A stretch of DNA of 31,546 bases from IMG/VR virus record IMGVR_UViG_3300032284_002637, positions 1-31,546 of that record. One strand, given 5' to 3'. Each line of letters opens with the position of its first letter. Position 1 is the stretch's first letter. Shown here in pieces: positions 3,241 through 28,674 of the stretch. Position numbers and translations under genes: made by a program. The notes beneath the pieces were generated by a model. It did no database searches. It was given only the letters and a program-made list of their open reading frames with translations, and was not told the DNA's origin. Origin of the DNA: a virus.

Positions 3241-3241
3241 A

Positions 3242-5185
3242 ATGCCTTTCACTAATTTTACGAATTTAGATTTCGAGCAAATTAGAACTTCGATCAAAGA
3301 GTATCTTCGAGCAAACAGTAACTTTACTGACTTTGATTTTGAAGGTTCTAACTTCTCAGTATTAATTGATATTCTAGCATATAACACATATATCACTGCG
3401 GTTAACTCAAATATGATTGTTAACGAATCCTTTTTGGATTCGGCAACATTGAGAGCTAATGTGGTTTCCTTAGCAAGAAATATTGGCTACGTACCACGCT
3501 CTAAAACCGCCGCAAAGGCGTCTGTTACCTTTCAGGTATCAGTTGACACCAGTAGCCCTCATCTCACCTTACAGGCTGGTCTAGTGTGCGTTGGCTCAGC
3601 AAGTAATACCTCCTATGTGTTCTCAATTCCCGAGGATATTACAGTTCCTGTTATTGGTGGAGTTGCAACTTTTGGGTCAACAACATCACCAATAACTGTT
3701 TATCAAGGGACATATCTAAAGTATACTTGGACAGTCGATACTTCAATAACTCAAAGATTTATCATTGATAATCCAAGTGTAGATACCTCAACATTGGTTG
3801 TTCATGTTAAGGGAGTTAATGATAGTGGAATTGGTAGAGAATACTATCGAGTAGATAATATTCTGAACATTCATCCAGGATCTGAAATATATTTGATTCA
3901 AGAAATACAGGATGAAAAATATGAACTTCTTTTTGGTGATGGAATATTTGGTAAACCATTAGAAAATAATACAGTAATCACTACGGGATATATTGTATCT
4001 GATGGAATAAATGGAAATGGAGCTGCATCATTTGCATTTCAAGGAAAGTTTGTAGATGATTTAGGTGTTACTGTAATTCCTACTGGGAGAGTATCAATCA
4101 ATACGATTTCTCCAGCAGCAAATGGTGCTGAAATTGAAGGTCTATCCTCGATTAAATATTTTGCTCCCAGATTGTATTCCGCTCAGTACAGAGCAGTAAC
4201 AAGTAAAGATTATGAGGCAATCATTCAACAGATCTATAGAAATACCGAGTCAGTTTCTGTGATTGGTGGAGAAGATTTGAATCCACCTCAGTTCGGTAAG
4301 GTTTTGATTAGTATCAAACCAAAAAATGGCAACTATATTTCAGATTTTGATAAGCAAAATATTTTAAATAATCTCAAGCAATATTCAATCACAGGAATTA
4401 AGCAAGAAATTATCGATCTTAAAGTTCTTTATGTGGAGATCATTTCCTCAGTTTATTATAACTCAGCTCAGGTTAGTAATGTTAATGATTTACAAACATC
4501 GGTTGTAAACGGTCTAATCTCATATTCAAAATCAACTGATGTGAATAAGTTTGCTGGTAGATTTAGATATAGTAAAGTTCTCCAGGTGATTGATCGAATT
4601 GATAATGCAATTACATCAAATATTACAAAAGTTAGAATTAGAAGAGATTTAAAAGTACTATTAAATCGCTATGCTCAATATGAACTTTGTTTTGGAAATA
4701 GATTTCATATAAACCCATCAGGATTTAATATTAAGAGCACAGGATTTTATATTGATGGTGTTGTAGATTCTACAGGAAATCTCATTAAGGTCTATCTTAC
4801 GGATGTGCCAAATAAAGATGCTGCAGGCATGTTAGATGGAAGTAATATGGGAGTTTTATCTGCAATCAGCGTATCAACTCAGGGTACTTATAAAGTACAA
4901 GTTAAAGCTGTGGGTACTGTAGATTATTCAAAGGGAGAAATTAAACTTTCTACTCTTAATATTACTGGCACAGATGTTCCAAATAATATTATAGAAATAC
5001 AGGCATATCCAGAATCAAACGATGTTGTTGGTCTCAGAGACTTATATTTAAGTTTTGACGTTTCTAAGAGTTCGATAAATATGGTTAAAGATGTTATAGC
5101 TTCTGGTGAGGATATCTCAGGAGTTTCATTTACCAGGGATTATTATACTTCAAGTTATGCTAACGGATCTGTAGAGAGAGGATGA
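3242..5185 (+). CDS. 6: Baseplate wedge subunit gp6
   Basis: A 647-aa protein, near the 660 aa of T4 gp6, in the position directly after gp25. The N-terminus MPFTNFTNLDFEQIRTSIKE and following helices (NFSVLIDILAYNTYITAVNS, SARNIGYVPRS-like stretch) are typical of cyanophage gp6. Its central part (APRLYSAQYRAVTSKDYEAI) matches the baseplate J-like region. In T4, gp6 dimers join neighbouring wedges into the ring around the hub and form a core bundle with gp7. The ATG follows the gp25 stop by one base, and its own TGA overlaps the next ATG by four bases (ATGA), so translation is likely coupled. No truncation or frameshift is seen. Confidence 0.92.
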   Translation: MPFTNFTNLDFEQIRTSIKEYLRANSNFTDFDFEGSNFSVLIDILAYNTYITAVNSNMIVNESFLDSATLRANVVSLARNIGYVPRSKTAAKASVTFQVSVDTSSPHLTLQAGLVCVGSASNTSYVFSIPEDITVPVIGGVATFGSTTSPITVYQGTYLKYTWTVDTSITQRFIIDNPSVDTSTLVVHVKGVNDSGIGREYYRVDNILNIHPGSEIYLIQEIQDEKYELLFGDGIFGKPLENNTVITTGYIVSDGINGNGAASFAFQGKFVDDLGVTVIPTGRVSINTISPAANGAEIEGLSSIKYFAPRLYSAQYRAVTSKDYEAIIQQIYRNTESVSVIGGEDLNPPQFGKVLISIKPKNGNYISDFDKQNILNNLKQYSITGIKQEIIDLKVLYVEIISSVYYNSAQVSNVNDLQTSVVNGLISYSKSTDVNKFAGRFRYSKVLQVIDRIDNAITSNITKVRIRRDLKVLLNRYAQYELCFGNRFHINPSGFNIKSTGFYIDGVVDSTGNLIKVYLTDVPNKDAAGMLDGSNMGVLSAISVSTQGTYKVQVKAVGTVDYSKGEIKLSTLNITGTDVPNNIIEIQAYPESNDVVGLRDLYLSFDVSKSSINMVKDVIASGEDISGVSFTRDYYTSSYANGSVERG

Positions 5186-8100
5186 GTATGTTTGAGCCTA
5201 GTTTTGAGAAAAGAGTAAAGATTAATCAAATTATTGAAAATCAAGTACCAGAGTTTTTACTCTCAGAATCTCCCAAAGTTGTAGATTTTTTAAAGCAATA
5301 TTATATTTCTCAAGAATATCAAGGGGGACCCGTTGATCTTGTAGAGAACTTAGATCAATATATAAAGCTTGACAACCTAACACCAGAGGTTATTACAGGA
5401 TATACAAGTTTAACTTCGGATATTTCGTCTACAGATACTGTAATTTACGTACAGTCTACAAAAGGATTTCCATCAGAATATGGACTTTTGAAGATTGATG
5501 ATGAAATTATCACCTATACTGGAATATCCACAAACAGTTTTACTGGATGCATTCGTGGTTTTAGTGGAGTTACTGGATATGAAAATGTAGTTGGTAGTGG
5601 ATTAAGTATTGGTAATGAGCGCCAGTTGATCTTTTCATCATCTTCTAGCTCAAATCATACAAATAACTCTACAGTTAATAATCTAAGTTCATTATTTTTA
5701 AAAGAATTTTATAAAAAACTCAAATATTATTTGACTCCTGGCTTAGAAGATAACAATTTTACTACAGGTTTAAATGTTTCAAACTTTATAAAAGAAGCTA
5801 GAAGTTTTTATCAAGCTAAAGGAATTGAGGAATCTTTTAGAATCCTTTTTAATGTCCTTTATGATGATAACGCAACTGTTTTAAACCTCGATAGTCGTCT
5901 TATAAAACCATCATCTGCATCGTATATTAGAAGATTGGTTTTAATGACCGAACTTATTTCTGGTCAAAATCCACTAAATCTAGTGGGACAGACTATTAAC
6001 CAGTCCACAGACAGTGTAACTCAGGCATCAGTGTCTAATATTGAAGCAGTAACTAGGGAAGGAAAACTTTATTATAAAATTTCACTTTTTATTGGATATG
6101 ATGATAGATCTTTAATTGATGGGAAGTTTGATATTTCTGGAAAAACTAAAGCATTAGAAAATGTTTCAGTAGGCTCATCAATCATTTCTGTAGATTCTAC
6201 TATCGGGTTTGGACAAACTGGAACTTTAATTTCTGGATATAATCAAATTAATTATACTTCAAAAACAATAAATCAGTTTTTTGGGTGTAGTGGAATTATA
6301 GTTCCTATATCACAAACGGATGATATAAAATCCACTGAAGTGATTTATGGATATGAAAATGGGGATACTTCAAAAAAAGTAGAACTTAGAATTACTGGAG
6401 TATTATCAAATTTTGTCCCTATTTCTGATATTTCCTTAGCAGATGAAGGTGAAATAATTTCAATCAGAAGTATTGGAGAATCTATAAAAAATCCAGAATC
6501 TAATAAAACATATAAAGAAATCTTTGCAAACTCATGGGTCTATAACACAAGTTCTAGATACCAAGTATCAGACATTAATGGATCAACATTTACTCTTTTA
6601 AGTAAAATTGATAAATCTAGTTTAAAAGTTGGAGATTATGTTGACATTTTAGAAAGAAATAGTAATAATATTGTTATCTCTGGGGCACAGGTTGACTCAC
6701 TTTTAGGAAATAATCAGATTAGATTAAATACTTTTTCAACGTTCACTCCAGTATATGGGTTATATTATGATATAAGAAGAAAAATTAAAAAAGCAACTTC
6801 TTCACCAACTGCAGCTCAGTTACAATTTGGAAATAACGCTTTAATATCAGATGTATTGAATGTATATTCTGATTTTGACAGTTATGGATATGTTGCATCT
6901 AATTCCTTACCAGATTATCCAATTTATTCAAATATTACCAAAGCAATTATTCCTGATGCATCTGGTTTTGCATTACAGGGATATGACTCAATATCTAAAC
7001 AATATTCTGTACTTTCATTTGATGTGCCAAATGTGCCATTTATAACTGGTGATAGAGTAGTATATGAAGCATCCAACATTAATATACCAGGATTGGTGTC
7101 TGGGCAGGTTTACTATGTTCAAATAGTCGATAATTATCCAAATCAAATTCGACTTTATAGTTCAAAATCTTTATTATACACAAGCTACTATGAGCAGTTT
7201 AACCCTCTACCCACAGGATCTGGATCGCACACATTTATTTTAGAAAAACACAGAAAAGAACTTATTGGAACAAATCCAATTTTAAGAAAATTTCCATTTC
7301 CACAAAATATATCAAATACTGAAACTGACAAAAAAAATCTAGGTGGAGTTGGTATTTTAGTTAATGGTGTAGAGATTATTAATCCAGAGTCTGACGATAG
7401 AGTTTATTATGGACCTCTATCAAATTTTACAGTCCTTAATTCTGGACAAGGCTATGATGTTATAAATCCACCGACAATTCAAATATCAGCTCCAGATTCG
7501 GGCACGACAGCACAAGTTATTCCTGTAGTTAGTGGAATTGTATCATCTGTTTTTGTTGATCCTCAAGATTTTGATGTTCAAGATGTACTATCAGTCACAT
7601 TGACTGGTGGAAATGGTTCTGGTTGTATACTAGAACCAGTAATGGGAGAAAGGTATCGAGAAGTTTTATTTGATTCCCGACAGTTACTGTTTGGAGGTGG
7701 AATTGATATTGATCAAGAAACAATTTCATTCCAAACTCCACATAAGTTTCAGAGTGGAGAAACTATTATTTACGATCAAAATGGTAATTATCCGCTACAG
7801 ATATCCTCGTATAGAGATTCAAACAACCCTACAGGAACTCTGGTAAGTGGATCATCTTATGTTGCAAAAGTTATAAATCCAATAACTATTCAACTTTATA
7901 ATACAATATCGGACTATAACTCAGGTATTAATACCATTGGAATCGCTACAAATACTTATTCTGGTATTCAAAAGTTTAGAACTATATCAAAAAATACATT
8001 AAGATCTATAAAAGTTTTAAATCCAGGTTCAGGATATCAATACAGGCATTTATATGTTCCTCCCTCAGGAATTTCTACTCAGTATAGTACAGTTAGTTTT

Positions 8101-11100
8101 ACTAATCATGGATTCAATAGTGGAGATTTAATCCAATATTATTCAACAGGAAATACAATTTCTGGAATATCTACATTTAATCAATATTATGTTATTAAAG
8201 TAGATAATAATAGCTTTAAACTCGCTGATGCTGGGATTGGTGCAAGCATCACTTCAAACTACTCAAGAAATAAAACTGTTATTTTTGGTTCCACTGGTTC
8301 TGGATTTAATGTTTTTAAATACCCAGATATCTCAGTTTCAGTAAATGTTGCTTATGGTACAACAATAGCTGGTAACTTTGTTATTACTCCAGTCGTAACT
8401 GGACAGATTATTGATGCTTATATGTATGATCCTGGAAGTGGATATGGTTCTAATAGTTTAAATTTGGAAAGAAAGCCATTAGTTACTCTATCTAACGGAA
8501 AAGATGCTCAGCTAAAACCGATAGTTTCTGGTGGTAAGATATCATATGTTGAGGTTTTAAGTAAAGGATCTCATTACAATTCACCACCAGACTTAGAGGT
8601 AACTGGTAGTGGTAGTGGCGCAATTCTAAGAGCCGTTGTACAAAATGGGCAACTTGTGAGTGTTGTTGTTATAAATTCTGGAATTGGGTATAGTTCTTCA
8701 GATACGAGTGTTAAAGTCAACGTAAGGGGTCATGGTGCATTATTTGATGTCAATATTAGGTCATTAGCACTTAACAATCAGTATCGTTACAATCAAGAGT
8801 TTTTCCTAGAAAAAGGAGATCATTTAACCTACAATATACTCGGATATTCCGAAGATTTAGGAAAAAATGTGTTTTCAGATTATGGAAATTCCCATTCACC
8901 AATTATTGGTTGGGCATATGATGGTAATCCAATTTATGGGCCGTATGGATATTCTGATGCTAAAGATAACACATCTCCAATTAAAATTTTAAAATCAGGA
9001 TATTCATTATCACCTGGAAAAATTAATAGTAGACCTTCAACATCAGTATTTGCTCCTGGATTCTTTATTGATGATTATCAATTTGATAATATGGGCGATC
9101 TTGACATTTGTAATGGTAGATTTTGCAAAACCCCAGATTTTCCAAATGGAGTTTATGCATACTTTGTAGGCGTATCTACTAGTCCAATAACCAATAAGTT
9201 AGAACCCCAATATCCATATTTTATTGGAGATTATTATAGATCTCCATTTATTATGGAAAATATCTTATTAGATCAGACATTTGATTTTAATAACTCAAAT
9301 CTAACAAGAAATACCTTACCATATAAAGTTAGAGATCTATATGCAGGAAATGATTTTATTACAGAATCATATGGAATTACAAATCAGCTCTCTACGATAG
9401 AATCTATTACTAAAGGTTCAGTAGAAACTTTAGAGATTATAGATGGGGGAGAAAACTATCAAGTCGGAGACTATACAATATTCAATAATGTGGGCACAAA
9501 TGGAGGTGGATTAAATGCAGTAGTATCTTCAGTTTCTGGAAAAACTATTAATCAAATTAATACAAGTTTACAGAGATATACAAACTCAATTTTTATCTGG
9601 AATGGAAATGATTCAATAACCGTGTATCAGCCATTTTACAATACGTTCAATAATAATGATGCGGTAAGAATTTCTGGATTAACAAGTTCCATTACTGGAT
9701 TAACAGGAACCTTTAATGTTGGCATTGTAAGTAGTCAAGTTCAGTTACTCAAAGCAATGCCAGCAAACCCATATGGTGGAAATCCCTACACTGGAAATTT
9801 CACTAACGGTGGAGTTACCGCAGACATTTATGTTTCAGGTATACCTAATACAATTTCAATAGGAAGTTCTTTATTAGTAGATAATGAAGTTCTTACTGTA
9901 TTGAATATTTTCCCAGAAGGTTCTTGTTTGAGAGTTAAGAGGCATATAATATCAGTAGGACATAGTATAGGATCTACTGTCAATGTTTTGCCTAATAGAT
10001 TTACAATTAATGTACAAACACCACAATTTGATTCCAAAATAAATGACATGGTGTATTTCAATGCACTCCAGTCTGTTGGGATGGGTACAACCCCAGGTAT
10101 AAGTATATCTTCAGTATATACCACTGGTGATACCTCAGTAAATATTTCTATTCCAACTCAAACAATATACCTACCAAATCACCCATTCAAAACTGGACAG
10201 AAAGTAACGATTTCTAAAAATCCAGCAGCGGATTCAATTATTGTTGGTAATACTGCAGATGTTGGGTCTACATTTTATTTGCCAGATACATTTTCTGCAA
10301 TATCGACCGCTTATGTCATCAATAAATCTAAAGATTACATTGGATTGGCCACACAAGTAGGATTGACTACAAATACTAATGGGTTATTTTTCTTCAGTGC
10401 AGGGGTAAACGATGCTCAATATTTAATATCATCTAATTTTAATCAAGTTAAAGGTACTGCAGATAGAATTGTAGCAAATGTAATCACTAACAGTTCTCAT
10501 GGACTGCATAATGGTGATACTATATTTTTAGAAGTGAAGCCGAATGGTCTTGTGGGTATAGGATCAACAAATTCTGTCGTTATTGCATACAATCAAGATT
10601 TTGCAAAACTGTTAGTGGGTCCTGTAGGGTTTGACTCATCTCAGATCAGCGTTTCCACTGACAGTATTAATATTCCATCCCATGGATTTGAAACTGGAGA
10701 TAAAGTTTTATATACATCAAATGATCAAATTGCTGCGGGATTAAACACAGGAGTATACTTTGCATATAAAGTTGATTCTGACAATATCAGTCTTTCTGAG
10801 ACATTATTCGATGTTACATCAAAATATCCATCATTTTCTAACATAGTTGGTGTTGGCGGATCTCATCACCAACTTGCAAAGATTAATCCAAGAATTGATG
10901 TCATTAAGGATAATAGTATTGTTTTTAATCTTTCCGACCCATCTCTAGTTGGCTCTAAGTTAAAAATATTCTACGATAGTGGGTTTAATAAAGAGTTTTT
11001 ATCTACGGAAGAAACAAGTTCATTTAATGTTATTAGGCAGGGTTCACCTGGAATTGATAGTGGTGCCAAGTTAGTGGTAAACTATTCCGAAGCTTTTCCA

Positions 11101-14100
11101 TCTAAGTTATTTTATGCTTTAGAAAGATCTGGATATATCAGCACATCAGATACTGAAGTTATCAATGGATCTGAAATAATATTCACCAATAGTTCATACA
11201 CTGATTCATATCCAGTATTTGGTATTGGTACTAATACCTTCAACATTGCATTGAATAAGGTTCCTGAGTCGCTTAATCACAGTCAATATGATTGCAATGT
11301 ATTGAGATATTCAACTCCATCCACAAATGTGGTTGGTCCAGTAAATTCTTTGAGGATATTATCTAATGGTGCTAACTACAAGAAGCTTCCAACGCTTGAG
11401 AAAATTAACTCTATAAATGGAAAAAATGCAAACATCGCTCCATATTCTAATTCTATTGGTAGAATAAAAAATGTTAGAGTTTTGGATATTGGTTATGAAT
11501 ATTCTTCAGATAAAACATTAAAACCAGAAGCATTTATTTCTCCGATTGTTAGTCTTGATAACTCAGATACCATAGCAAATATTAGTATTCTCTATGGTGG
11601 AGCAGAATACATTTCACCACCAAGTTTGATCTTATATAATCCAGTAGCTAACACTGTTGTAGATACAACTTCATTGACTGCAACTGTTCAAAACTCAAAC
11701 GTTAGTTCTGTCAATATACTAGGACCAATTTATGGGTTACAATCAACAACACATAGAGTTATTGCAGTAGATAACTCAAATGGTGTGGGCATTTCCTCAA
11801 TGGTGGGAAGCAGTTCTGGAATAGTTACTTGTACATTATTAACACCCTTAGTTGGATTTCATACGTCTATATTTAACATTGGTGATCAAATATTTGTTGA
11901 GGGTGTGCAAAAAATCTCTTCGGATGGTACTGGATATAACTCTTCAGATTATGGCTACCAGTTCCTCACTGTTACTGCATTTCAAAATACCAATCCAGCA
12001 CAACTAGAATATAGTTTAGCAGGATTAACCACAAACCCAGGAATTGCAAAAACTTATCAATCTGGATATGCAACTATTGTAAATAAAAACTTTTATCCAG
12101 TTTTTAGTGTTGATCAAGAAAGATCTTTATTTGCAGTTGGAGAACAACTTTACACAAATCTTGGTTCTGGATTTATTGTAAATGATGTTTACATAACAAA
12201 ATCTAGACCCGATTATATAAAAATAAAAGGAAGTTATGACTTAAGTATTGGTGAAGTAATAAAAGGTAAAACTTCTGGTGTTATTGCAACTGTTAAAAAT
12301 ATATCAGAAAATAAAGGATTATTTTTGGTTGATTATGGAAGCAGGCAGGATATTGGGTGGTCTGATAGTACTGGAAAATTAGATGAGGATTATCAAGTTA
12401 CTCCAGATAATGATTATTACCAAAATCTTTCATACTCAGTAAAAAGTACAATAGAATATGATACATTTGTGGATCCTGTTAAGAGACTATTACATCCTAC
12501 AGGATTAAAAGGATTTGCAGACACTCAGGTTTTTTCTAGAGTTTCTTCGGCATCAACTTACCAATCAAAGACTGAAGATGTTATTATCTTAGATGTTTAT
12601 AACCAAAAGAGAATTGATAATATTAATAATTTTGATCTTGATTTAGATTATGATACTCTATTTGGAGAAAATAAATCAAAATATTTGATCTTCAAAAATA
12701 AAAAACTTGCAAACTATGCTTTATGCAAAACAAATAGGGTTTTAACGATTGATGATATAAGTGGTAAGTTTTCAAATATAGGAAACTTTTTACCATACGT
12801 AGATATTTCACCAATTAATGACAATTTCCAAAAATATTTGGTACAGATTACTAATCTAGATACTTTTGATACTCAAATTTCAGAAGTCGTTGTTATAGAC
12901 ACTCAAGCTGATGTATTTACATTCGAAAAGGAAACTTTATATACTACTCCAGGTGTTTTGGGAGATATTTCTGCCCAGATAGATGAGTTTTCAAATAAAA
13001 CTCTCAGATTTACACCAGCGGATATCTATAACAGTGATTATGATATCAAAGTTCTAAATTTAAACTTTAATACTGATTTGGCTGGAATAGGGACTTATTC
13101 TATTGGATCTGTTGATTTATCTGGTAACAATGTTATTGTTGCTAGTGGAGCAGCATCAACTATTTTCTCAAAATCATTAACTAGTTTTAATGGATTGTTT
13201 TCAAATATTGAAATTTTTGATACGATACAAAGAACAATTGAATATGCTGAAGTTACACTTGGTTATGATGGAAGTAATGTTTATCTTTCAGAATACTATT
13301 TTGATAGTATAGCGCAATCCTATAGTACACAATATGTTGGATTCTTTACTTCATTTGTTGATCCAGTTTCAAATACGGTGTCATTACAGTTTTACAATGA
13401 TAAAAATAATCCAATGCTTGTTAGGTGCAACAACGTTGGATTTGGTACGACTTCGGTTGGGATTGGAACCTACAGATATCTAATACCTGGTCAAAGTTCA
13501 GGTACTGAGAGAACTATTCGTTTGGAAAACACCTATGGATCGGGGAGTTCTCCAATTACAGTGTGTAACTTAAATATAAACCTTGATAGTAGCGTTAAAT
13601 CTTTGGTAAGAGTTTCTTCTGGAAATACCAGCGCAATGCATCAGGTGTTAATGACACAAAATAGATCTGATGTTTTTGTTGTCCAGTATCCATTTGTATC
13701 AATAGGAAGTACTTCGGGAATTGGAACTTTCGGTGGAAACATAAGTGGCGATAATGTTACCTTATTATTCTATCCTGATCCTATTTTTAATAATACTAAA
13801 GTTCAATCTTATAATGAAATCTTATATACTCAAAATGATTATGATAATAGTCCAGCACCATTGCAGTATGGTACAGTAAATCAAACATTATTATTAGCAC
13901 CTTATAATGGATTTAATGGGACTAGAGCAAATAAAGTTGATTTTGATTTGAGGCATAATGGTGATTACATTTATAAGAAAGTATTTAATCCATCAGATGC
14001 AACTCAATTAAATCCTGTTACTGGAATATTCAGTATTCCAAATCATTTCTTTAGCACAGGTGAGCAACTTACATATTTACCAGTTTCAACTTTTGCTGGA

Positions 14101-17163: not shown

Positions 17164-17183
17164 TCCTATACCCCAAAGACAAG

Positions 17184-17191
17184 TATAAATA
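17184..17191 (+). promoter_or_regulatory. T4-type late promoter before gp8
   Basis: TATAAATA, a perfect late box, lies in the 46-base gap between the giant gene and gp8. A start near 17197 leaves a leader of about 13 bases, too short for a normal Shine-Dalgarno, and none is visible. It gives gp8 and the genes after it expression independent of the 12-kb transcript upstream. Confidence 0.8.
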
Positions 17192-17209
17192 TAGAAAAAA
17201 GATCTCAAA

Positions 17210-18766: not shown

Positions 18767-18768
18767 AA

Positions 18769-21700
18769 ATGCCTCAGAAAACTAACTTAAATATAAGCCC
18801 ATATTATGATGATTTTAATCCTCAGGATAATTTCTATAGGGTATTGTTTAAACCTGGATTCCCAGTACAGGCTAGAGAGTTAACTAATCTCCAGTCAATT
18901 CTTCAAAATCAAATAGAATCCTTTGGTAGCCATATTTTTCAAGAAGGCTCCATGGTTATACCTGGAGCAGTTACATTTGATAACAGATATTTTTCAGTAA
19001 AAATAAATCCAGACCATCTTGGAATTGATGTAACAGTTTATCTTCAAAGTTTAGTTGATACTGGAGTTAGACTTAAGGGTCAAAGCTCTGGAGTAGTTGC
19101 AACCATTAAAGGATTTACATTGCCCCCAAATGAGGGAGTAACCGATATAACGATTTATGTAAAATATTTGGATTCTGGGGATGACTTCAAAATATCTCAG
19201 TTTTCTGATGGAGAAATTTTAGTATTACTAGATAATGCAACTTATGGAAATACTACATTGAATGCTGGAGATACAGTATTAACTGTACTATCTCAAAATG
19301 CAACTGCAGTAGGATCTGCAGTTGGTGTGGATCGTGGAGTATATTTTATTCGGGGAACTTTTGTTAATGTTCCCATGTCAAATATTGTATTAGATCCATA
19401 CTCTAATACTCCCACATATAGAGTTGGTTTAAATATTTTAGAGGAAATAATAACTTCAAATGATGAATCTCAACTAAATGATAATGCCAGAGGATTTTCA
19501 AATTATGCTGCTCCAGGCGCTGACCGATTAAAAATCAGCACTACGCTCGTCAAAAAAGCTATAGATGATTACCAAGATACAAATTTTGTAGAGTTACTTA
19601 AAGTTGATGCTGGCGTAGTTAAAAGTGTTCAGAATACTTCAGATTATTCTTTGATTAGGGATTATTTTGCCCAAAGAACTTATGAGGAAACGGGTAACTT
19701 TGCATTAAACTCTTTTAATGTAGATGTTTTAAATTCTCTTAATGATGAAGTTTCATCAAATGGGATTTATATTGACACACAAAAAACAGAACAAGGAAAT
19801 ATACCATCAGATGATTTGATGTGTGTGAGAGTATCTGCAGGTAAAGCTTACGTAAAGGGGTATGATGTCAGTCTCCCTGGATCTAGAGTTGTTGATGTCA
19901 AAAAACCAAGGGATACAAAAACCATTTCTGAGGCATTGGTGCCCTTTGAAATGGGAAATCTCCTAAGAGTTAATAATGTATATGGAACACCTTTACTTGG
20001 TTTAAATAGTTCTAATACAATAAGCCTTTATAGTAAAAGAAGGAATACTTCAAATACAACAAGCGGAACAGGAACTTTAATTGGTAAAGCTAGGGCATAT
20101 ACTTTTCAAGTAACTGATGCAGCATATACTGATCAAACTACTTCATGGGATTTGTATTTGTTTGATATTCAAACATATACAGCACTGACATTATCTTCAT
20201 CATTAGGAGCATCTGATGTACCAGTTAGTAGCTATGTAAGAGGATTAAGTAGTGGGGCAACAGGTTATGTTGCGGTAGCCCCTAACTCAACCTTACTATA
20301 CATAGATCAAACTTCTGGTAATTTCTTATCTGGTGAGCAGATTATTTTTAATGAAAATACACAGTTTTCAAGAACTGTCAAATCAATAACAGTATATAAT
20401 ACTGATGATATAAAATCAGTATTTCAAAACTCACCAGCGTTAGACGCAAACCTGCAATCATGCTTTATTGCAGATACGGTTTTATACAGATCAATACCTA
20501 CAGGATTCAATGCATCTGACCAAATTACAATCACTAGTGGTGGAACTGTAACTTGTCCTGTATCAATTCCCGCAAAATCGTTTTTGACAATTAAACCTGG
20601 TTCTATTATTAGGTATCAAAAACAGGGTTCAAATGTGGAAACCTTTAACGTTGTGAGCTCAGTTTCTGCTGATGGGTTGTCCATGACCCTATCAGCATTA
20701 GATTCTTCGGTATCTAAAATATGCGATGGGACACTTCCTGGAACAACAATATCAACACCGTTTGCGTTGGGTGTTCCAACAGTTTTAAATACGGATAAAG
20801 CATCGTTATATTCACAACTACCCAAAGCAAATATATCAGCTCTTAATTTGGGAGTTTCAAATTTAATAGTTACTTCACAAGTCAAAAATAAAAGTGTCAA
20901 TGGAAGTGGGAGTTTAACAATTACCACAAATGATGTTGGGATTACTAGTTCGTTTTTTGAAGCTTTTAATCCACAAAGATATTCTATATTTTATTCCAAC
21001 GGTACAATTGAACCCCTAAGTTCAGATCAGTTTACATTGGGTCCAAATGCAGGATCTATAACTTTATCTGGATTAACTGCTAGTGCAACTGGAGTATCTG
21101 TTAATGTCACTTTAGCAAAGAATCTAACATCAACAAAAGCCAAGAACTTTGTTAGAAGTAATCAGTTAGCAGTTACATATACTAGTGGCGTTTCAGACCC
21201 AGCTATTAGTGGATTATCAACTAATAGTTATTATGGATTAAGAGTTGAGGATAGAGATATTTCATTAAATGTTCCAGATGTCGTTAATGTTGTTGCAATA
21301 TATCAATCAGTAGATACTAATGCACCAGTATTAGATTCTCTTACATTTCCAACTGGATTGGCATTAAATACAAAAACAATTGTTGGTGAAAAAATAGTTG
21401 GTCAAAATAGTAGAGCAGTAGCTCAGTTAGTTACCCAAATATCATCAAATCAGATTGGCTTTGTTTATTTAAACTCTAAGCAGTTTACTGCAGGTGAAAC
21501 TGTTATTTTTAAAGAATCGAATATTCAAACAAACATTCAAAGTGTCAATGTAGGAAGTTATACTGATCTTACAAGTAACTATACTTTAGATAAGGGTCAG
21601 AAAGATCAGTTTTACGATTATTCTAAGATTGTTAGAAAAGCTGGATCTATATTACCATCAAAACAACTATTAATCATTTATGATTGCTATCAAATAACAA

Positions 21701-24700
21701 CCAATAATAATGGTGATGTATCTACTGTAAACTCATATACTAAGGATAGATTTTCTAAAGATATCCCATTACTTCAAAATGGATCTCTAAGAGCAACTGA
21801 TACTTTAGATTTCAGGCCAGCAGTTTCTAATTTTACATCAAATACATCATCTCCGTTTGATTTTTCAAGTCGTTCCTTTTCATCATCAATAAACTATGTA
21901 ATAACACCTAATGAGGGGTCTTTACTGGGATATAGTTATTATTTACCTAGGGTTGATAAGGTAACCTTAACTAAATTTGGGCAGGTATCCGTTATAGTTG
22001 GCAATTCCGATGATTCACCAAAACCACCTGTCAACGTTGATGATTCAATGGATGTAGCGGATATATATTTACCTCCATATCTGTATAGTCCAACTACTGA
22101 TGTTAAGTTTAAACTATATGATAATAGAAGATATACAATGCGAGATATTGGTGCATTGGATAACAGGATTAAAAACTTAGAAACAGTAACAACACTAAAT
22201 TTATTAGAACTTGATACAAAATCTTTACAAATTCAAGATGCTGATGGCATAAACAGATTTAAAACTGGATTTGTTGCAGATAACTTTAAAAATTCTGATT
22301 TAATTTCCACAACTAATACTGATAATAGATGTGATGTTGATGTTGTGGTAGGTGAGCTGAGTAATGCTGTTGATTTTTGGTCGATTGCCCCACAACTGGC
22401 ATATGATCCATCAGTTAATCTTAGCCAAAATATTTCAGAAGCTAGTGGCACATTCCCATTATTAGATCCTAATACTACAAAAACTGGAGATTTGATTACA
22501 CTCAATTATACTGAAGTTGAATGGATAACACAACCACAAGCATCGGATGTTGAAAATGTAAACCCATTTAATGTTATTGCATATGTTGGTGGAGTTATAT
22601 TAGATCCCGCATCGGATAACTGGATAAGGACGATTTATGTTGACAATTCAAGAACAGAATCTACTGGTGCTCAGTGGGTACAAAGTTCTAATACAACTAC
22701 TGATACTTTTACCCAGGGTAATCAGAATGTTACTCGTAAAACAACTACTTATACCAATACATTAGAGGGTCCATCAAGAGAATTTAACTATGTTGAAAGT
22801 ATAAAAGTCTCAGGGCAAATAGATCCATATATGAGATCTAGAAATGTATATTTTGCAGCTAGTGGGTTAAAGCCATTTACCCAACATTATTACTATATGG
22901 ATAATATAAGTGGTTTGGATATTGTTCCAAAGTTAGTTGAGATTAGCATGATTTCTGGAACTTTCCAAGTTGGTGAAACTGTAGGTGGATTTTTTGGTGG
23001 ACAACAAATTTTGCGTGCTTTGGTTAAAGAACCAAATCATAAAAAGGGTCTGCCCGATGGTACAACTAAGTTGTATAATATCAACCCATATGATAGAAAT
23101 TTAACTCTTGGATCAACATATTCACCAACATCTACTGTTTTGAATATTGGTGTAAATGCTCTGGCTAGTGATATGGAGCATTTCCAAGGTTTAGTAACTC
23201 CTGGAATGACGCTAAGTGGACAGACAAGTGGAGCAGTAGCGACAGTTACTAATGTTCGATTGATTACCGATAATTATGGAGATTTGATCGGTGCGTTTTT
23301 CATTAGAGATCCAAATACAAATCCACCGATTAAAATTAACTCAGGACAAAGAACATTCAAATTAACGGCGGCTCCCCCTGGTATTACACCACTTCCAGGT
23401 AGTACAACCTACGCAAGTAATGCTAGTACCACATATAGTGGAAGTGGTACAATATTAACACAAAATACAACCACAGTTAATGTAAGAAATCCACCCCCAC
23501 CACCAGATAAGGCACCAACGGTTACTGAAACTCGTGTAGATATTCCTCAACCAACACCTGCACCTGCACCTGCACCCCCACCATCTAATAATGGTGGTGA
23601 TCATGATAAAGATCCTCTCGCACAAACTTTTAAGGTTGATGGGACTGGGGCATTTTTAACTGGAGTAGATGTATATTTTGGCAATAAGGATCCAAATCAG
23701 AGATTATTTGTGGAAGTTAGGACGGTAGAGTTAGGAACTCCTACCACACAGCTAGTTCAAGATTATGCAAGGGCGGTTCTTGATCCAAATGATATTCAAA
23801 TATCTAGTGATGCTTCAGTACCAACTCACATTAAATTCCCATCTCCAATCTATCTTGAATCAGCTAAAACATATGCTTTAGTATTTTTGGCACCAACTTC
23901 GGATATGTTTGAGATGTGGGTTGCCACTATGGGACAACCTACGGTTCAAACCGCAAATCTACCAGACGTTCAAAACGTTATCATATCTAAGCAATATAAT
24001 GGTGGTAGCTTATTTAAATCCCAAAATGGTGAAATTTGGACTCCAAGTCAATATCAAGATTTGACGTTTAAACTGTATAAAGCTAAGTTTGTTTCTTCAG
24101 GAGATGCTGTTTTTTATAATACAAGAGTAGCTGCTGGAAACATTAATGTCCCAAATCTTCAGGCTAATGCAATTAGGACTTACCCTAGAAAGTTAAAAGT
24201 TCCAGTTCAAAATGTTTCAGCTGCTTGGTCAAAATTAGTTCCAGGAACTAAAGTTGGGCAAGGATCTATAAATCAAACAGGAATAACTGGCATTATTGAG
24301 AAGATTGGTGGTAGTATTAATGCTGTTGGAATCACAACTGGTGGAAATGGTTTTATTCCTTCGCAAGTATATTCGAATGTACCATTATATTCTATATCTG
24401 GATTAGGTCAAAATGCAACTGCTACAGTTACGACTTCTGCATCTGGAACGGTACAAACAGTATCAATAGCTAATACTGGAACTGGATATGTTGTTGGTGA
24501 TTCTTTAGGTATTACAACTTCTGCAGTTGTTAAGGGGTATGGTGCTGTACTTTCGGTATCTTCCGTTTATGGCACTGACACTCTGTATTTAACTAATGTT
24601 CAGGGTGATTCATTCAATTTAAATCAGCCATTAGTATATTATAATGGAAATACGAGAGTTTCTTCAGGTACAACTATCAGTGCAGATTCTTCACTTATAA

Positions 24701-26025
24701 GCTCCTTGTACTCTGGAAATGTGTTTAAAGTACAACAGTATAATCATGGTATGCACGGTGCAAACAACTTGGTCAACGTTACAAATGTTGCTCCAGATAC
24801 TGCTGCAGTTGCATTAACTGGCAATTTGGGAATAAATGATACACAAGTATCCGTCGCAACTACTATACCATTTGGAAATTTTGAAGGAGTATCAACATCT
24901 AGAGGATATGCAATTGTTGATAGTGAGATTGTTCAATACACTGGGCTATCTAATAATATTTTACAGCTTGGTGCCAGAGGAGTAAATGGATCTCCCATTA
25001 CACCTCATGCATCTGGATCTGTGATATATCCATATCAAATAAATGGAGTTTCTCTTACTAGAATCAATACTACATTTACATTACCAACTGATCCCGCATT
25101 ATCTGGAGCAGTAGATTTAGATAGTTATTATTTACAGTTTAATCGAACTGATACTCCTCAAGTTAGTTTTACTGATCAAAAATCAGTAGGTGAAAATAAT
25201 ATTCAAGTTTCGCAAAATCATCAGTTTAGTACCATTGTTCCACAATTTAATGTTATCACTCCAGGCAATGGTACTCAAATTTCGGCACAAATCAGAACTA
25301 TAAGCGGAACAAGCTCTGGAGGATCTGAAGTTTCGTTTGTAGATCAAGGTTATGAGGCTGTAAACTTAAATAGTGAGACATTCCTTAAGACACCCAGATT
25401 AGTGGCATCGGAAATTAATGAAAATGCATATCTAGCAAATCTACCCCTTAATAAGTCATTAGCATTACGAACAAGAATGCAATCTATTGACCCAAATCTA
25501 TCTCCAGTTATTGATACAAAAAATGCAATATTTATTTTGGGTAGAAATAGATTAAATAATCCAATAGTAGATTATGTTACTGATGATAGGTCAAATCGCA
25601 CTTCTGGAGATCCTCATAGCTCAGTCTATATTACTAAAAAGGTAGATTTGGCGCAGGCGGCAACTTCATTACAAGTTATTGTATCTGCATGTAGACCAGC
25701 AGAAGCTGATTTTAGGGTTTTATATCAACTATTTAAATCAGATTCGAGTGAGATTACTCAATCTTATGTACTTTTTCCAGGTTATGATAACTTAACCGAC
25801 ACTACTGGTAATGGATATGGAAATAGAGTTATTGATCCATCTAAAAATACTGGACGAGCTGACGCTTTTGTAAGAGCCAGCAATGATAATGAGTTTTTAG
25901 ATTATCAGTTTACAGCTCATGATTTAGATCCATTTTCAGGATTCATTATTAAAGTTGTAATGTCATCTACAAATGAATCTGCTAGAGTTAGATTAAAAGA
26001 TTTTAGAGCGATTGCATTAGCATGA
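18769..26025 (+). CDS. Large virion structural protein, DUF4815 family (baseplate/tail fibre connector)
   Basis: A 2418-aa protein. The first ~70 residues (MPQKTNLNISPYYDDFNPQD; GFPVQARELTNLQSILQNQI) and GVYFIRGTFVNVP match the DUF4815 family of T4-like marine phages. It occupies the gp9/gp10 position after gp8, so a role in the outer baseplate or in fibre attachment is likely. A proline-rich stretch at about residues 1570-1612 (PPPPPDKAP, then PTPAPAPAPPP) looks like a hinge. After it comes a distinct domain (DPLAQTFKVDG; FLTGVDVYFGNKD; PIYLESAKTYALVFLAP) at about 1615-1778, then Gly-Tyr repeats near 1848 and 1896 and an 'IDDE'-like unit (IVDSEIVQYTG) near 2014-2089. The ATGA overlap with the next gene indicates coupling. 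No T4 gp10 similarity is evident by eye. Confidence 0.85.
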   Translation: MPQKTNLNISPYYDDFNPQDNFYRVLFKPGFPVQARELTNLQSILQNQIESFGSHIFQEGSMVIPGAVTFDNRYFSVKINPDHLGIDVTVYLQSLVDTGVRLKGQSSGVVATIKGFTLPPNEGVTDITIYVKYLDSGDDFKISQFSDGEILVLLDNATYGNTTLNAGDTVLTVLSQNATAVGSAVGVDRGVYFIRGTFVNVPMSNIVLDPYSNTPTYRVGLNILEEIITSNDESQLNDNARGFSNYAAPGADRLKISTTLVKKAIDDYQDTNFVELLKVDAGVVKSVQNTSDYSLIRDYFAQRTYEETGNFALNSFNVDVLNSLNDEVSSNGIYIDTQKTEQGNIPSDDLMCVRVSAGKAYVKGYDVSLPGSRVVDVKKPRDTKTISEALVPFEMGNLLRVNNVYGTPLLGLNSSNTISLYSKRRNTSNTTSGTGTLIGKARAYTFQVTDAAYTDQTTSWDLYLFDIQTYTALTLSSSLGASDVPVSSYVRGLSSGATGYVAVAPNSTLLYIDQTSGNFLSGEQIIFNENTQFSRTVKSITVYNTDDIKSVFQNSPALDANLQSCFIADTVLYRSIPTGFNASDQITITSGGTVTCPVSIPAKSFLTIKPGSIIRYQKQGSNVETFNVVSSVSADGLSMTLSALDSSVSKICDGTLPGTTISTPFALGVPTVLNTDKASLYSQLPKANISALNLGVSNLIVTSQVKNKSVNGSGSLTITTNDVGITSSFFEAFNPQRYSIFYSNGTIEPLSSDQFTLGPNAGSITLSGLTASATGVSVNVTLAKNLTSTKAKNFVRSNQLAVTYTSGVSDPAISGLSTNSYYGLRVEDRDISLNVPDVVNVVAIYQSVDTNAPVLDSLTFPTGLALNTKTIVGEKIVGQNSRAVAQLVTQISSNQIGFVYLNSKQFTAGETVIFKESNIQTNIQSVNVGSYTDLTSNYTLDKGQKDQFYDYSKIVRKAGSILPSKQLLIIYDCYQITTNNNGDVSTVNSYTKDRFSKDIPLLQNGSLRATDTLDFRPAVSNFTSNTSSPFDFSSRSFSSSINYVITPNEGSLLGYSYYLPRVDKVTLTKFGQVSVIVGNSDDSPKPPVNVDDSMDVADIYLPPYLYSPTTDVKFKLYDNRRYTMRDIGALDNRIKNLETVTTLNLLELDTKSLQIQDADGINRFKTGFVADNFKNSDLISTTNTDNRCDVDVVVGELSNAVDFWSIAPQLAYDPSVNLSQNISEASGTFPLLDPNTTKTGDLITLNYTEVEWITQPQASDVENVNPFNVIAYVGGVILDPASDNWIRTIYVDNSRTESTGAQWVQSSNTTTDTFTQGNQNVTRKTTTYTNTLEGPSREFNYVESIKVSGQIDPYMRSRNVYFAASGLKPFTQHYYYMDNISGLDIVPKLVEISMISGTFQVGETVGGFFGGQQILRALVKEPNHKKGLPDGTTKLYNINPYDRNLTLGSTYSPTSTVLNIGVNALASDMEHFQGLVTPGMTLSGQTSGAVATVTNVRLITDNYGDLIGAFFIRDPNTNPPIKINSGQRTFKLTAAPPGITPLPGSTTYASNASTTYSGSGTILTQNTTTVNVRNPPPPPDKAPTVTETRVDIPQPTPAPAPAPPPSNNGGDHDKDPLAQTFKVDGTGAFLTGVDVYFGNKDPNQRLFVEVRTVELGTPTTQLVQDYARAVLDPNDIQISSDASVPTHIKFPSPIYLESAKTYALVFLAPTSDMFEMWVATMGQPTVQTANLPDVQNVIISKQYNGGSLFKSQNGEIWTPSQYQDLTFKLYKAKFVSSGDAVFYNTRVAAGNINVPNLQANAIRTYPRKLKVPVQNVSAAWSKLVPGTKVGQGSINQTGITGIIEKIGGSINAVGITTGGNGFIPSQVYSNVPLYSISGLGQNATATVTTSASGTVQTVSIANTGTGYVVGDSLGITTSAVVKGYGAVLSVSSVYGTDTLYLTNVQGDSFNLNQPLVYYNGNTRVSSGTTISADSSLISSLYSGNVFKVQQYNHGMHGANNLVNVTNVAPDTAAVALTGNLGINDTQVSVATTIPFGNFEGVSTSRGYAIVDSEIVQYTGLSNNILQLGARGVNGSPITPHASGSVIYPYQINGVSLTRINTTFTLPTDPALSGAVDLDSYYLQFNRTDTPQVSFTDQKSVGENNIQVSQNHQFSTIVPQFNVITPGNGTQISAQIRTISGTSSGGSEVSFVDQGYEAVNLNSETFLKTPRLVASEINENAYLANLPLNKSLALRTRMQSIDPNLSPVIDTKNAIFILGRNRLNNPIVDYVTDDRSNRTSGDPHSSVYITKKVDLAQAATSLQVIVSACRPAEADFRVLYQLFKSDSSEITQSYVLFPGYDNLTDTTGNGYGNRVIDPSKNTGRADAFVRASNDNEFLDYQFTAHDLDPFSGFIIKVVMSSTNESARVRLKDFRAIALA
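23556..23573 (+). repeat. ACCTGC hexamer repeat in the proline-rich hinge
   Basis: Three perfect ACCTGC units in tandem encode the PAPAPA core of the hinge in the DUF4815 protein. Hexamer arrays of this kind can gain or lose units by slippage without breaking the frame, so hinge length may vary between related phages. Confidence 0.7.
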
Positions 26026-26228
26026 TACCTGTAGAAGGACATAAACATCTTTTCCGCGATGAAAATAGTGGAGCAATTATTAATCATGATACCTATGGAT
26101 ATTCCCAATATATTAGATCTCGAAATGAGAGAAAAAAGCAACGCGATGAAATTGAAACCATAAAAAATGACATCGAACAGATTAAATCTATGTTAAAGGA
26201 GATACTTAATGGATCCAAAGGAAATTGA
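26022..26228 (+). CDS. Small coiled-coil protein between baseplate and neck genes
   Basis: A 68-aa protein whose ATG overlaps the preceding TGA (ATGA), pointing to translational coupling with the DUF4815 gene. The first half (MIPVEGHKHLFRDENSGAII, then NHDTYGYSQYIRSRNERKKQ) is polar. The second half (RDEIETIKNDIEQIKSMLKE) has a clear heptad pattern of Ile/Leu and would form a coiled coil, probably an oligomer. The 3' end overlaps the next gene by 20 bases in another frame. Its role is unknown; an assembly factor or small virion component would fit. Confidence 0.8.
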   Translation: MIPVEGHKHLFRDENSGAIINHDTYGYSQYIRSRNERKKQRDEIETIKNDIEQIKSMLKEILNGSKGN

Positions 26229-26388
26229 TTTAGAGACAATCACTAAAATGTTTGAATATGAAAAACATGCTCGGATGATTGATGAACTTAATATTAATGA
26301 GTTGCGAGATTTCGCAAAACTTTATTGTAAACTTTATCTAAAACAGCAAGAAGTTATTTCCACTTTAGGTCCTATCAACCTTAAGTAA
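26209..26388 (+). CDS. Small 59-aa protein of unknown function
   Basis: A 59-aa frame beginning MDPKEIDLETITKMFEYEKH and ending GPINLK. A strong Shine-Dalgarno (AAAGGAG, 26196-26202) precedes the ATG, and the frame overlaps the preceding gene by 20 bases. The chain is helical and Leu/Tyr-rich (NELRDFAKLYCKLYLKQQEV) without membrane segments. It fills the whole interval to the gp13 late promoter, which begins two bases after its stop. Good ribosome site, start and gap-filling length make it credible despite its size. Function unknown. Confidence 0.75.
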   Translation: MDPKEIDLETITKMFEYEKHARMIDELNINELRDFAKLYCKLYLKQQEVISTLGPINLK

Positions 26389-26389
26389 A

Positions 26390-26397
26390 GATAAATA
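26390..26397 (+). promoter_or_regulatory. T4-type late promoter before gp13
   Basis: GATAAATA (followed by CATTTT) matches the late box at seven of eight positions. It lies 43 bases before the gp13 ATG, just after the stop of the 59-aa gene, and probably drives gp13, gp14, gp15 and gp16 together. Confidence 0.65.
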
Positions 26398-26440
26398 CAT
26401 TTTAGGGTAAGGTGTTGTCACTTATTAGGTACAAAGAAGT

Positions 26441-27277
26441 ATGTCACAACCAGCGTCCAGACAACAACTCATAGATTACTGTTTAAGGAGGCTGGGAGCC
26501 CCTGTGTTGGAAATTAACCTTGATGATGACCAAATAGATGATTTAGTCGATGATGCCTTCCAGTACTTCCAGGAGCGCCATTTTGACGGTGTTGAAAGAA
26601 TGTATCTTAAACACCAGATTACTCAGGAAGAAATTGATAGGGGTAAAGCTAGTGCGTTATCTCCAGTTGGCCCAGGCGTAACTACATCCATAGCAACATC
26701 AACGTCAGGATTTGCTTCCACCTGGTATGAGGGATCAAACTATATTCAAGTTCCTGATAGTGTTATAGGAGTTGAACAGGTATTTAAATTTGATACCAGC
26801 TCGATATCTGGTGGCATGTTTAGTATTAAATACCAGTTATTTTTAAATGATTTATACTACTTCAACTCCGTAGAACTTCTCCAATATGCAATGGTTAAAT
26901 CATACCTAGCAGATATTGATTACCTATTAACTACGGATAAGCAAATAAGATTTAATAAGAGGCAGAATAGGTTGTATATGGATATTGATTGGGGAGCACA
27001 AACTGCAGGAAATTTTATTATATTGGATTGCTATAGAATACTAGATCCAAATAATTTCACAAAAGTTTATAATGACAGTTTCTTGAAAAAATATCTTACT
27101 GCACTAATGAAAAAGCAGTGGGGACAAAATCTAATTAAATTTAAAGGAGTAAAACTCCCTGGAGGAGTTGAACTAAATGGTAGAGAAATCTATGAAGATG
27201 CTGAAAGAGAGCTCGATAAGTTGAAGCAGATCATGGCACTAGAACATGAACTTCCACCATACGATTTTATTGCATAA
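26441..27277 (+). CDS. 13: Neck protein gp13
   Basis: A 278-aa protein (T4 gp13 is 309 aa) with the characteristic opening MSQPASRQQLIDYCLRRLGA and the acidic helix INLDDDQIDDLVDDAFQYFQ. The C-terminal half has the family segment MDIDWGAQ, then DCYRILDPN, KKYLTALMKKQWGQNLIKF and a closing helix (AERELDKLKQIMALEHELPP). In T4 gp13 and gp14 form the neck ring that closes the packaged head and accepts the tail. It follows a late promoter, and its TAA shares a base with the gp14 ATG (TAATG). The middle (SPVGPGVTTSIATSTSGFAS) is a low-complexity Thr/Ser loop. Confidence 0.92.
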   Translation: MSQPASRQQLIDYCLRRLGAPVLEINLDDDQIDDLVDDAFQYFQERHFDGVERMYLKHQITQEEIDRGKASALSPVGPGVTTSIATSTSGFASTWYEGSNYIQVPDSVIGVEQVFKFDTSSISGGMFSIKYQLFLNDLYYFNSVELLQYAMVKSYLADIDYLLTTDKQIRFNKRQNRLYMDIDWGAQTAGNFIILDCYRILDPNNFTKVYNDSFLKKYLTALMKKQWGQNLIKFKGVKLPGGVELNGREIYEDAERELDKLKQIMALEHELPPYDFIA

Positions 27278-28674
27278 TGGCACTTAATCCTTTTTTTACT
27301 CAGGGATCACCTTCAGAGCAAAGACTTGTTCAGGATTTAATCAATGAACAGTTAAAAATATTTGGTGTTGAAGTTACTTACATTCCAAGAAAATTTGTTA
27401 GAAAAGAAACCATATTGAGAGAAGTAACCACATCTAAATTTGATGACAACTTCGCTATAGAAGCTTATGTCAATACTTATGATGGATATAACGGAGCTGG
27501 AGACATTTTAACAAAATTTGGAATGAGTTTACGAGATGAAGTAACTCTTATCATTTCAAAGGAAAGATTTGAGGATTTTATTGTCCCATTTTTAGTTGAT
27601 ATGGATCCAAATGAAATTGAGTTAGCAACAAGACCTAGAGAAGGAGATTTAGTCTATTTTCCTTTGGGTAAAAGATTATTTGAAATTAAGTTTGTTGAGC
27701 ATGAGCAGCCATTCTATCAACTAGGAAAAACTTATGTTTATGAACTTAAATGTGAACTCTTTGAATATGAAGATGAACTTGGTGGATGGGATAATCTCAA
27801 TACAACTGTTGAAGAAATAGACTCCACATTACAAAATCAAGGATATTTAACTGCTTTAAATTTATTTTCTTTTGGCCTAACTGCAACGGCAACAGCAGGA
27901 ATATCATCTGGTTATATTAGGCAGATTATTTTGAATAATGATGGTTATGACTATACATCTATCCCAACAGTAACTATTGACCCAGCACCATTAGGCGGAA
28001 TCAATGCTACCGCAGTTGCTATAACCACTTCTAAAGGTGGGATTCAATCCATAAAAAATATTCTTATATCAAATGCTGGGGCAGGATATACTGTTGCTCC
28101 CAAGGTAACAATAACTGGTGGGGGTGGAGTAGGTGCTGCAGCATCTTCAGTATTAGTTAATAACTATTATGGTATTAATCATGTATCCATTAATAACTAC
28201 GGCGCAGGATATCCAACAGCACCAAGAATATCATTTGCTAGCCCAACAGTTGGACTAGCAATAACAGCATCGGGGATAGTTGGTATTGCGTCAACAGGAT
28301 CAGTAAGTTATGTTCTTTTATCTGATGCTGGAATTGGATATACTGCTGCACCCACAATAGTCGTAGCTCCACCACCGATATTAACTGGCATAGGAACATT
28401 CATATTTAATGAAGTTATTACTGGATCAATATCAGGTGCTAAAGCAAGAGTTAAGACTTGGGATAAAGATACAAATGTATTAGAAGTTGGAACTACCGAA
28501 GGAAACTTTATTCCAGGGGATATTATTGTGGGGACTGCATCTTCCGCACAATATAGTCTTAGAAATATTTCTCAAGCTATATTCCAAGATAAATATGAAG
28601 AAAATAATGATATTGAAACTGCAGGAGATCAAATCTTAGATTTTTCAGAATCAAATCCATTTGGAGTCTACTAG
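27277..28674 (+). CDS. 14: Neck protein gp14 with a large repeat insertion
   Basis: A 465-aa protein against 256 aa in T4. Residues 1 to about 205 carry the gp14 core (MALNPFFTQGSPSEQRLVQD; FGVEVTYIPRKFVRKETILR; RLFEIKFVEHEQPFYQLGK; GGWDNLN). The last ~30 residues (YEENNDIETAGDQILDFSES, then NPFGVY) are the usual gp14 end. Between them sits an insertion with four Gly-Tyr repeats at about residues 210-239, 257-284, 300-322 and 342-368 and a 'GSISGA' unit at about 369-436. The gene lies between gp13 and gp15 with a one-base overlap upstream and two bases downstream. The insertion probably projects from the neck. Confidence 0.92.
   Translation: MALNPFFTQGSPSEQRLVQDLINEQLKIFGVEVTYIPRKFVRKETILREVTTSKFDDNFAIEAYVNTYDGYNGAGDILTKFGMSLRDEVTLIISKERFEDFIVPFLVDMDPNEIELATRPREGDLVYFPLGKRLFEIKFVEHEQPFYQLGKTYVYELKCELFEYEDELGGWDNLNTTVEEIDSTLQNQGYLTALNLFSFGLTATATAGISSGYIRQIILNNDGYDYTSIPTVTIDPAPLGGINATAVAITTSKGGIQSIKNILISNAGAGYTVAPKVTITGGGGVGAAASSVLVNNYYGINHVSINNYGAGYPTAPRISFASPTVGLAITASGIVGIASTGSVSYVLLSDAGIGYTAAPTIVVAPPPILTGIGTFIFNEVITGSISGAKARVKTWDKDTNVLEVGTTEGNFIPGDIIVGTASSAQYSLRNISQAIFQDKYEENNDIETAGDQILDFSESNPFGVY
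27905..28378 (+). repeat. Four Gly-Tyr beta repeats inside gp14
   Basis: Four successive units with the pattern hydrophobic-hydrophobic-x-(N/S)-x-G-x-x-Y-(T/P)-x-x-P-x-(V/I)-x-(I/V): LNNDGYDYTSIPTVTI, ISNAGAGYTVAPKVTI, INNYGAGYPTAPRISF and LSDAGIGYTAAPTIVV. Unit spacing is about 42-47 residues. Units of the same pattern occur in the gp7-like protein, gp8 and the DUF4815 protein of this window. Confidence 0.85.

Follow-up and report, generated by a model that had tools for sequence, protein, structure and literature searches.

The question raised by this locus is why the same short beta units should recur in four virion genes of one phage. The stretch analysed (hereafter the window) is a 31.5 kb virus record, IMGVR_UViG_3300032284_002637, representing a fragment of a T4-like cyanomyovirus whose DNA comes closest to that of the isolate Synechococcus phage S-SRM01 (Kyanoviridae). 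The carriers of the units are a gp7-like baseplate wedge protein, the baseplate wedge protein gp8, a DUF4815 (VrlC) protein and the neck protein gp14, and the block of genes lies at 5182-28674, where an earlier note on this DNA had correctly placed it. That note took the units for one building block that was copied between genes. The modular theme is genuine, but it comprises several apparently old families, each distributed differently, and it is probable that the four T4-type proteins have been enlarged by mutually unrelated small all-beta modules, which were inserted in loops and would act as spacers and braces.

The gene order (gp25, gp6, gp7-like, gp8, DUF4815, gp13, gp14, gp15) nearly matches that of S-SRM01, and Pfam searches confirmed gp25, gp6, gp8, DUF4815, gp14 and gp15. 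Three of the carriers exceed the curated cut-offs of their families (Table 1), these being 25 bits for Phage-Gp8 (PF09215), 30 bits for PF16075 and 25 bits for T4_neck (PF11649); gp8 also matches the solved T4 gp8 (1n7z; expectation value (E) 1.2e-7). None of the four carriers matched NCBIfam. Gp7 has been reported to be absent from this phage group (PMC7029224). Despite this, the label "gp7-like" seems fair, since the two best PDB matches of the N-terminal profile of the protein are both T4-type gp7 (E 0.0014 and 0.0021), weak though these are and limited to 31-97 residues. Recognisable relatives of T4 gp7, gp8 and gp14 are thus all among the carriers, and while T4 gp7 has 1032 residues the gp7-like protein has 3993.

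Five kinds of unit were considered: A (GxGY), B (HGF), C (IDDE), D (GE..SGA) and E (NGV). Strict regular expressions were counted against 200 shuffles of each protein. GxGY occurs six times in the gp7-like protein (0.26 expected), twice in gp8 (0.03), once in the DUF4815 protein (0.06) and twice in gp14 (0.015), whereas the expressions for HGF, IDDE, GE..SGA and NGVxQxP matched only the gp7-like protein among the four. Hidden Markov model (HMM) profiles, controlled with shuffled and reversed decoys of which the best reached about 4-8 bits, identified about 11 A, seven B, two C, one D and three E units in the gp7-like protein; two A units in gp8, the second of these detected only by gp8's own family profile; two A, one C and four D units in the DUF4815 protein; and four A units and one D unit in gp14. 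The earlier claim that five kinds of unit recur in the four proteins stands in part: A is found in all four (weakly in one), D in three and C in two, while B and E, although multi-copy, are within this window confined to the gp7-like protein. Units make up 26% of the gp7-like protein, 16% of gp8, 13% of the DUF4815 protein and 42% of gp14, a minority in each case, and the suggestion that they cover the outside of the tail did not find support. Low-complexity Gly/Ser/Thr composition as the source of the signal was ruled out by the shuffled decoys. A C-like match at residues 982-1033 of the gp7-like protein, which coincides in part with a B unit, was for that reason attributed to profile drift and discarded.

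In a further test, profiles that each derived from a single protein family were searched against the other carriers. The gp7-like A profile found all four gp14 A units (domain E 4e-5 to 2e-4) and one gp8 A unit (E 1e-4), and the gp8 A profile found gp14 (E 4e-5); the gp7-like D profile found the DUF4815 protein and gp14 (E 2e-4 to 5e-4), and the DUF4815 C profile found the gp7-like protein (E 5e-8). Related units in neck, wedge and DUF4815 (VrlC) proteins, as noticed earlier, are therefore present above chance, several single-family profiles linking the proteins beyond decoys. The A units of the DUF4815 protein are the weakest link in this sharing, being missed by the gp7-, gp8- and gp14-only profiles and found only weakly (8-11 bits) by a pooled one. 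Short Gly/Tyr beta-turn motifs might instead have arisen repeatedly in beta-rich proteins, without common descent between genes. Such convergence would be in keeping with these missed units, with the modest cross-gene E-values for A and D, and with the low identity (mean 0.48, maximum 0.62) of those A units whose nearest relative lies in another gene of another phage. We nonetheless consider it improbable, because the leave-one-protein-out profiles outscore both shuffled and reversed decoys, C joins the DUF4815 and gp7-like proteins at the E-value given above, PHROG profiles of several other virion proteins match gp14 inside residues 200-441, and T4 yields no matches.

Even common descent within each family would not make the five kinds one block. 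Profile-profile comparison failed to merge A to E into a single family; the best cross pair (B-D) reached 37% probability over 16 columns and the rest remained below 20%. At the level of sequence, then, the five kinds are separate small beta modules, with no kinship detected between them. The literal reading of the earlier note, one block recently copied among the four genes, would explain why A is in all four proteins and why copy number differs between phages, but we give it hardly any credence. In addition to the five families without detectable kinship, 79 out of 100 A units have their nearest relative, at a mean identity of 0.70, in another phage's copy of the same gene, and a search for long DNA repeats joining the genes found none. 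Sharing of the units therefore looks old, with copies apparently gained and lost between lineages.

The units are not restricted to this window. In searches of four whole cyanophage genomes, the A and C units whose annotation was checked (a part of all hits, for D in particular) are located in virion genes, and their carriers in these relatives include the hub/lysozyme gene, another wedge gene and that of the long tail fibre. B is present in the long tail fibre gene of S-SRM01 and absent from S-SM1 and S-MbCM6. Unlike the cyanophage carriers, T4 lacks A, B, C and D, no match at E <= 0.01 being found in its whole genome; a borderline A match in T4 gp18 was dropped because that search found none. 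The gp14 A region had no match among plasmids. One D unit (E 2e-12) is present in Sinorhizobium phage phiM12, in its gp7-like wedge protein (locus 25409-28432), and D therefore extends beyond the cyanophages.

An indication of what the modules may do comes from C. Its profile matches the tail-tip protein of phage Chi (8vjh_A, E 7.6e-6) and the hub of phage JBD30 (8rk3_o, residues 497-556, E 8.1e-5). In a model of residues 2940-3820 of the gp7-like protein the C fold (model residues 122-224, about 3061-3163 of the protein; pLDDT, the predicted local distance difference test, mostly 57-82) aligns with 8rk3_b of JBD30 (Z 10.0, 77 residues, root-mean-square deviation (rmsd) 2.4) and 8vjh_A (Z 9.7, 74 residues, rmsd 1.9), and also resembles 9in6_M of phage VP1 (Z 10.9) and 9n71_A of Mystique (Z 8.9), all of these being tail or capsid proteins. 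Both its sequence and its predicted fold identify C as the small barrel, six-stranded, that is known from the tail hubs of siphophages. In JBD30 this barrel, domain VI, has been described as stabilising the baseplate (PMC11445458); the searches turned up no structure of a cyanomyovirus in which the same could be seen. As in JBD30 and Chi, the C units are extra barrels on tail proteins; they differ in that the phage has a contractile tail, with the gp7-like and DUF4815 proteins as carriers, and in that one C barrel of some cyanophages holds an array of A and E units in a loop.

Searched against PDB sequences, neither the D nor the A profile found a convincing solved structure. Pfam searches with consensus sequences of C, D and E yielded nothing convincing, and Foldseek searches of PDB with both models yielded no match at E <= 0.001. 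The gp14 model is confident over residues 191-434, all A and D units included (pLDDT mostly 85-96), and unreliable in its N-terminal half. Its best fold alignments cover 62-73 residues scattered over 187-433, at a Z of only about 6, which is the background level for such folds; the weak matches are to the barrels of eIF2-gamma domain III, F1 ATPase and 8rk3_b (Z 5.4-6.4). These alignments are consistent with a barrel that is interrupted by the A array, and D may form a barrel similar to C. Among viral proteins with predicted structures, several others also match the gp14 model, including proteins of uncultured phages and of a giant virus. Each A unit in it consists of a long strand, the GxGY turn, a short strand, a loop and a long strand, repeated; the A pair that closes the gp7-like segment shows the same strand pattern (pLDDT about 84-89).

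The modules might alternatively be weak glycan-binding units, many low-affinity copies of which would keep the particle close to the surface of the cyanobacterium, a role proposed for the Ig-like (immunoglobulin-like) domains of phages. B resembles the endosialidase beta-barrel family PF12195 (best E 1.5e-5 for relatives of B, 0.006 for the consensus and 0.029 for a window unit), and small six-stranded barrels in one tailspike have been described as commonly linked to the binding of biological polymers (PMC13420450). The likeness is weak: the window unit (14.7 bits) and the family consensus (16.9 bits) do not reach the curated cut-off of 35 bits, and the Pfam scans did not reveal an endosialidase catalytic domain. 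Furthermore, B is here limited to the gp7-like protein and is lacking in S-SM1 and S-MbCM6, the hub barrel that C matches is described as stabilising, and A, C, D and E match no carbohydrate-binding family. We therefore judge a general glycan-binding role unlikely, although carbohydrate contact by B, or by a YHYH domain within the gp7-like protein, is possible. Of the functions suggested in the earlier note, stiffness and spacing are favoured by the C match, and carbohydrate contacts retain just the hint from B.

The positions of the units vary between phages. In gp14, four A units precede D in the window, P-SSM2, S-SM2 and S-SRM01, two were detected upstream of D in ACG-2014f, and two lie inside D in S-RIM2, where D matches from model position 13 only; the 310-residue gp14 of S-SM1 matches the whole of D and lacks A units. 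Four A units are found in 91 of 99 gp14 proteins, mostly close relatives of the window. In the gp7-like protein the N-terminal profile is unbroken in the window, while in S-SM1, S-RIM2 and S-MbCM6 some 500 residues interrupt the C unit; in S-SM1 this insert consists of two E-like and seven A units. Where cyanophage gp8 carries the A pair and, further on, a D-like stretch, the aligned T4 protein shows short loops or gaps. This distribution suggests, from few genomes, that barrels and core loops are sockets for arrays, the sites differing by lineage. As a tentative extension we propose a nesting grammar in which the C and D barrels are sockets and the A hairpin arrays and E are gained or lost in their loops, independently per gene and lineage, giving an outer layer of adjustable size from the neck to the baseplate; we hold this for possible, not for likely.

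The same three phages encode giant proteins of 6180-7022 residues (S-MbCM6, locus 8780-29848; S-RIM2, 5643-24779; S-SM1, 8822-27364), whose annotations vary between gp8, similar to gp7, and virion structural protein. Each has a gp7-like N-terminal domain and 20-23 A units, and they look like gp7 orthologues.

The explanation that we favour is enlargement of gp7-like, gp8, DUF4815 (VrlC) and gp14 by beta modules that occupy loops. C is, and D may be, a six-stranded barrel of the kind that braces siphophage tail hubs; A hairpin arrays lie, according to the alignments, in loops of these barrels or of the gp8 core, with E-like units accompanying A in one such insert; and together they would be spacers and braces that widen and stiffen the neck and baseplate. 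Bracing and spacing are made the likelier functions by the core tail position of the carriers, by copy numbers that differ between phages and by the C match. The units, the proteins that share them, the fold assigned to C, the differing copy numbers and, through alignment, the sites of insertion are observations, whereas the barrel of D, the bracing and exposure on the surface are inferred. Several points count against this explanation. The match of D to barrels is weak; the role of A rests on position only, because it has neither a convincing solved structure (profile against PDB) nor a significant Pfam match; and the 881-residue gp7-like model, with any arrangement of the units in it, is of low overall confidence (mean pLDDT 61; predicted template modelling score (pTM) 0.26). 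The gp8 loop placement derives from a single multiple alignment, in which the identity with T4 is low.

Mosaicism of phage proteins, with Ig-like and other accessory domains added to structural proteins, is known (PMC10684548), and the theme is a variant of this habit. Like those domains, the units are common to virion proteins of differing function; they are smaller, of several kinds and nested, and neither the four proteins nor the unit consensus sequences matched Ig-like Pfam families. Because at least one module corresponds to a barrel known to stabilise tails, the theme is mostly one of scaffold and spacer, not one recently copied sugar-binding block. It offers an explanation, open to testing, for the 3000-7000 residues of gp7-type proteins in cyanophages, as against about 1000 in T4 gp7, and assigns one recurring unit to a solved tail-hub barrel. 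Cryo-electron microscopy maps would allow the insertion points named here to be compared among cyanomyoviruses whose gp14 has 0, 2 or 4 A units.

Table 1. Carrier genes and units in the window (bit scores from HMM profiles; aa, amino acids)
Feature	Residues (aa)	Coordinates	Strand	Support
gp7-like baseplate wedge protein	3993 in all	5182..17163	+	PHROG 2885; units A, B, C, D, E
C unit	79-131	5416..5574	+	46.8 bits; counterpart split by ~500-residue insert in S-SM1, S-RIM2, S-MbCM6
Three B units	615-659, 848-911, 972-1018	7024..8235	+	25.9, 48.4, 55.1 bits
A unit	747-785	7420..7536	+	36.3 bits
Three A units	1076-1192	8407..8757	+	28.9, 32.5, 26.1 bits
Three B units	1662-1724, 1768-1798, 1829-1873	10165..10800	+	51.0, 12.0, 51.9 bits
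Three A units, last marginal	2055-2163	11344..11670	+	19.0, 26.4, 7.7 bits
D unit	2354-2390	12241..12351	+	56.6 bits; profile also detects units in DUF4815 and gp14
B unit	2950-3016	14029..14229	+	63.3 bits
E unit	3046-3088	14317..14445	+	54.6 bits
C unit	3070-3149	14389..14628	+	115.0 bits; predicted fold resembles tail-hub barrels, Z 9-11
E unit	3232-3272	14875..14997	+	56.4 bits
E unit	3539-3569	15796..15888	+	37.7 bits
Two A units	3741-3827	16402..16662	+	30.2, 24.1 bits; model pLDDT about 84-89
gp8 baseplate wedge protein	518 in all	17210..18766	+	PF09215, 49.7 bits; units A
Two A units	221-303	17870..18118	+	own profile 62.4, 54.2 bits; first also by gp7-like and gp14 profiles
DUF4815 (VrlC) protein	2418 in all	18769..26025	+	PF16075, 180.8 bits; units A, C, D
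D unit	101-152	19069..19224	+	28.9 bits
D unit	480-530	20206..20358	+	66.0 bits
D unit	870-917	21376..21519	+	64.6 bits
Partial D unit	1481-1504	23209..23280	+	16.0 bits
Two A units	1853-1931	24325..24561	+	own profile 40.8, 31.5 bits; pooled 8.3, 11.1
C unit	2016-2089	24814..25035	+	86.0 bits; its profile finds gp7-like C at 5e-8
gp14 neck protein	465 in all	27277..28674	+	PF11649, 110.6 bits; T4-like core 3-183, then A and D
Four A units	214-380	27916..28416	+	54.5, 40.8, 34.7, 48.1 bits; best decoy 6.0
D unit	374-428	28396..28560	+	own profile 104.1 bits, decoy 7.2; pooled profile 39.8 bits

The YHYH domain of the gp7-like protein (PF14240, 93.6 bits) is encoded at 8857-9183 and is matched by 463 phage records, nearly all of them cyanophages; it is a predicted metal-dependent hydrolase (PMC7824862). 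Directly upstream of the baseplate genes is an S-adenosylmethionine decarboxylase gene (2152-2493; PF02675, 103.9 bits), which S-SRM01 also possesses. Two small overlapping open reading frames of 68 and 59 aa are located between the DUF4815 gene and gp13 (26022-26388). The second begins with MDPKEIDLET, which is similar to MDPNEIELAT in gp14, with 31 bases at 87% DNA identity.

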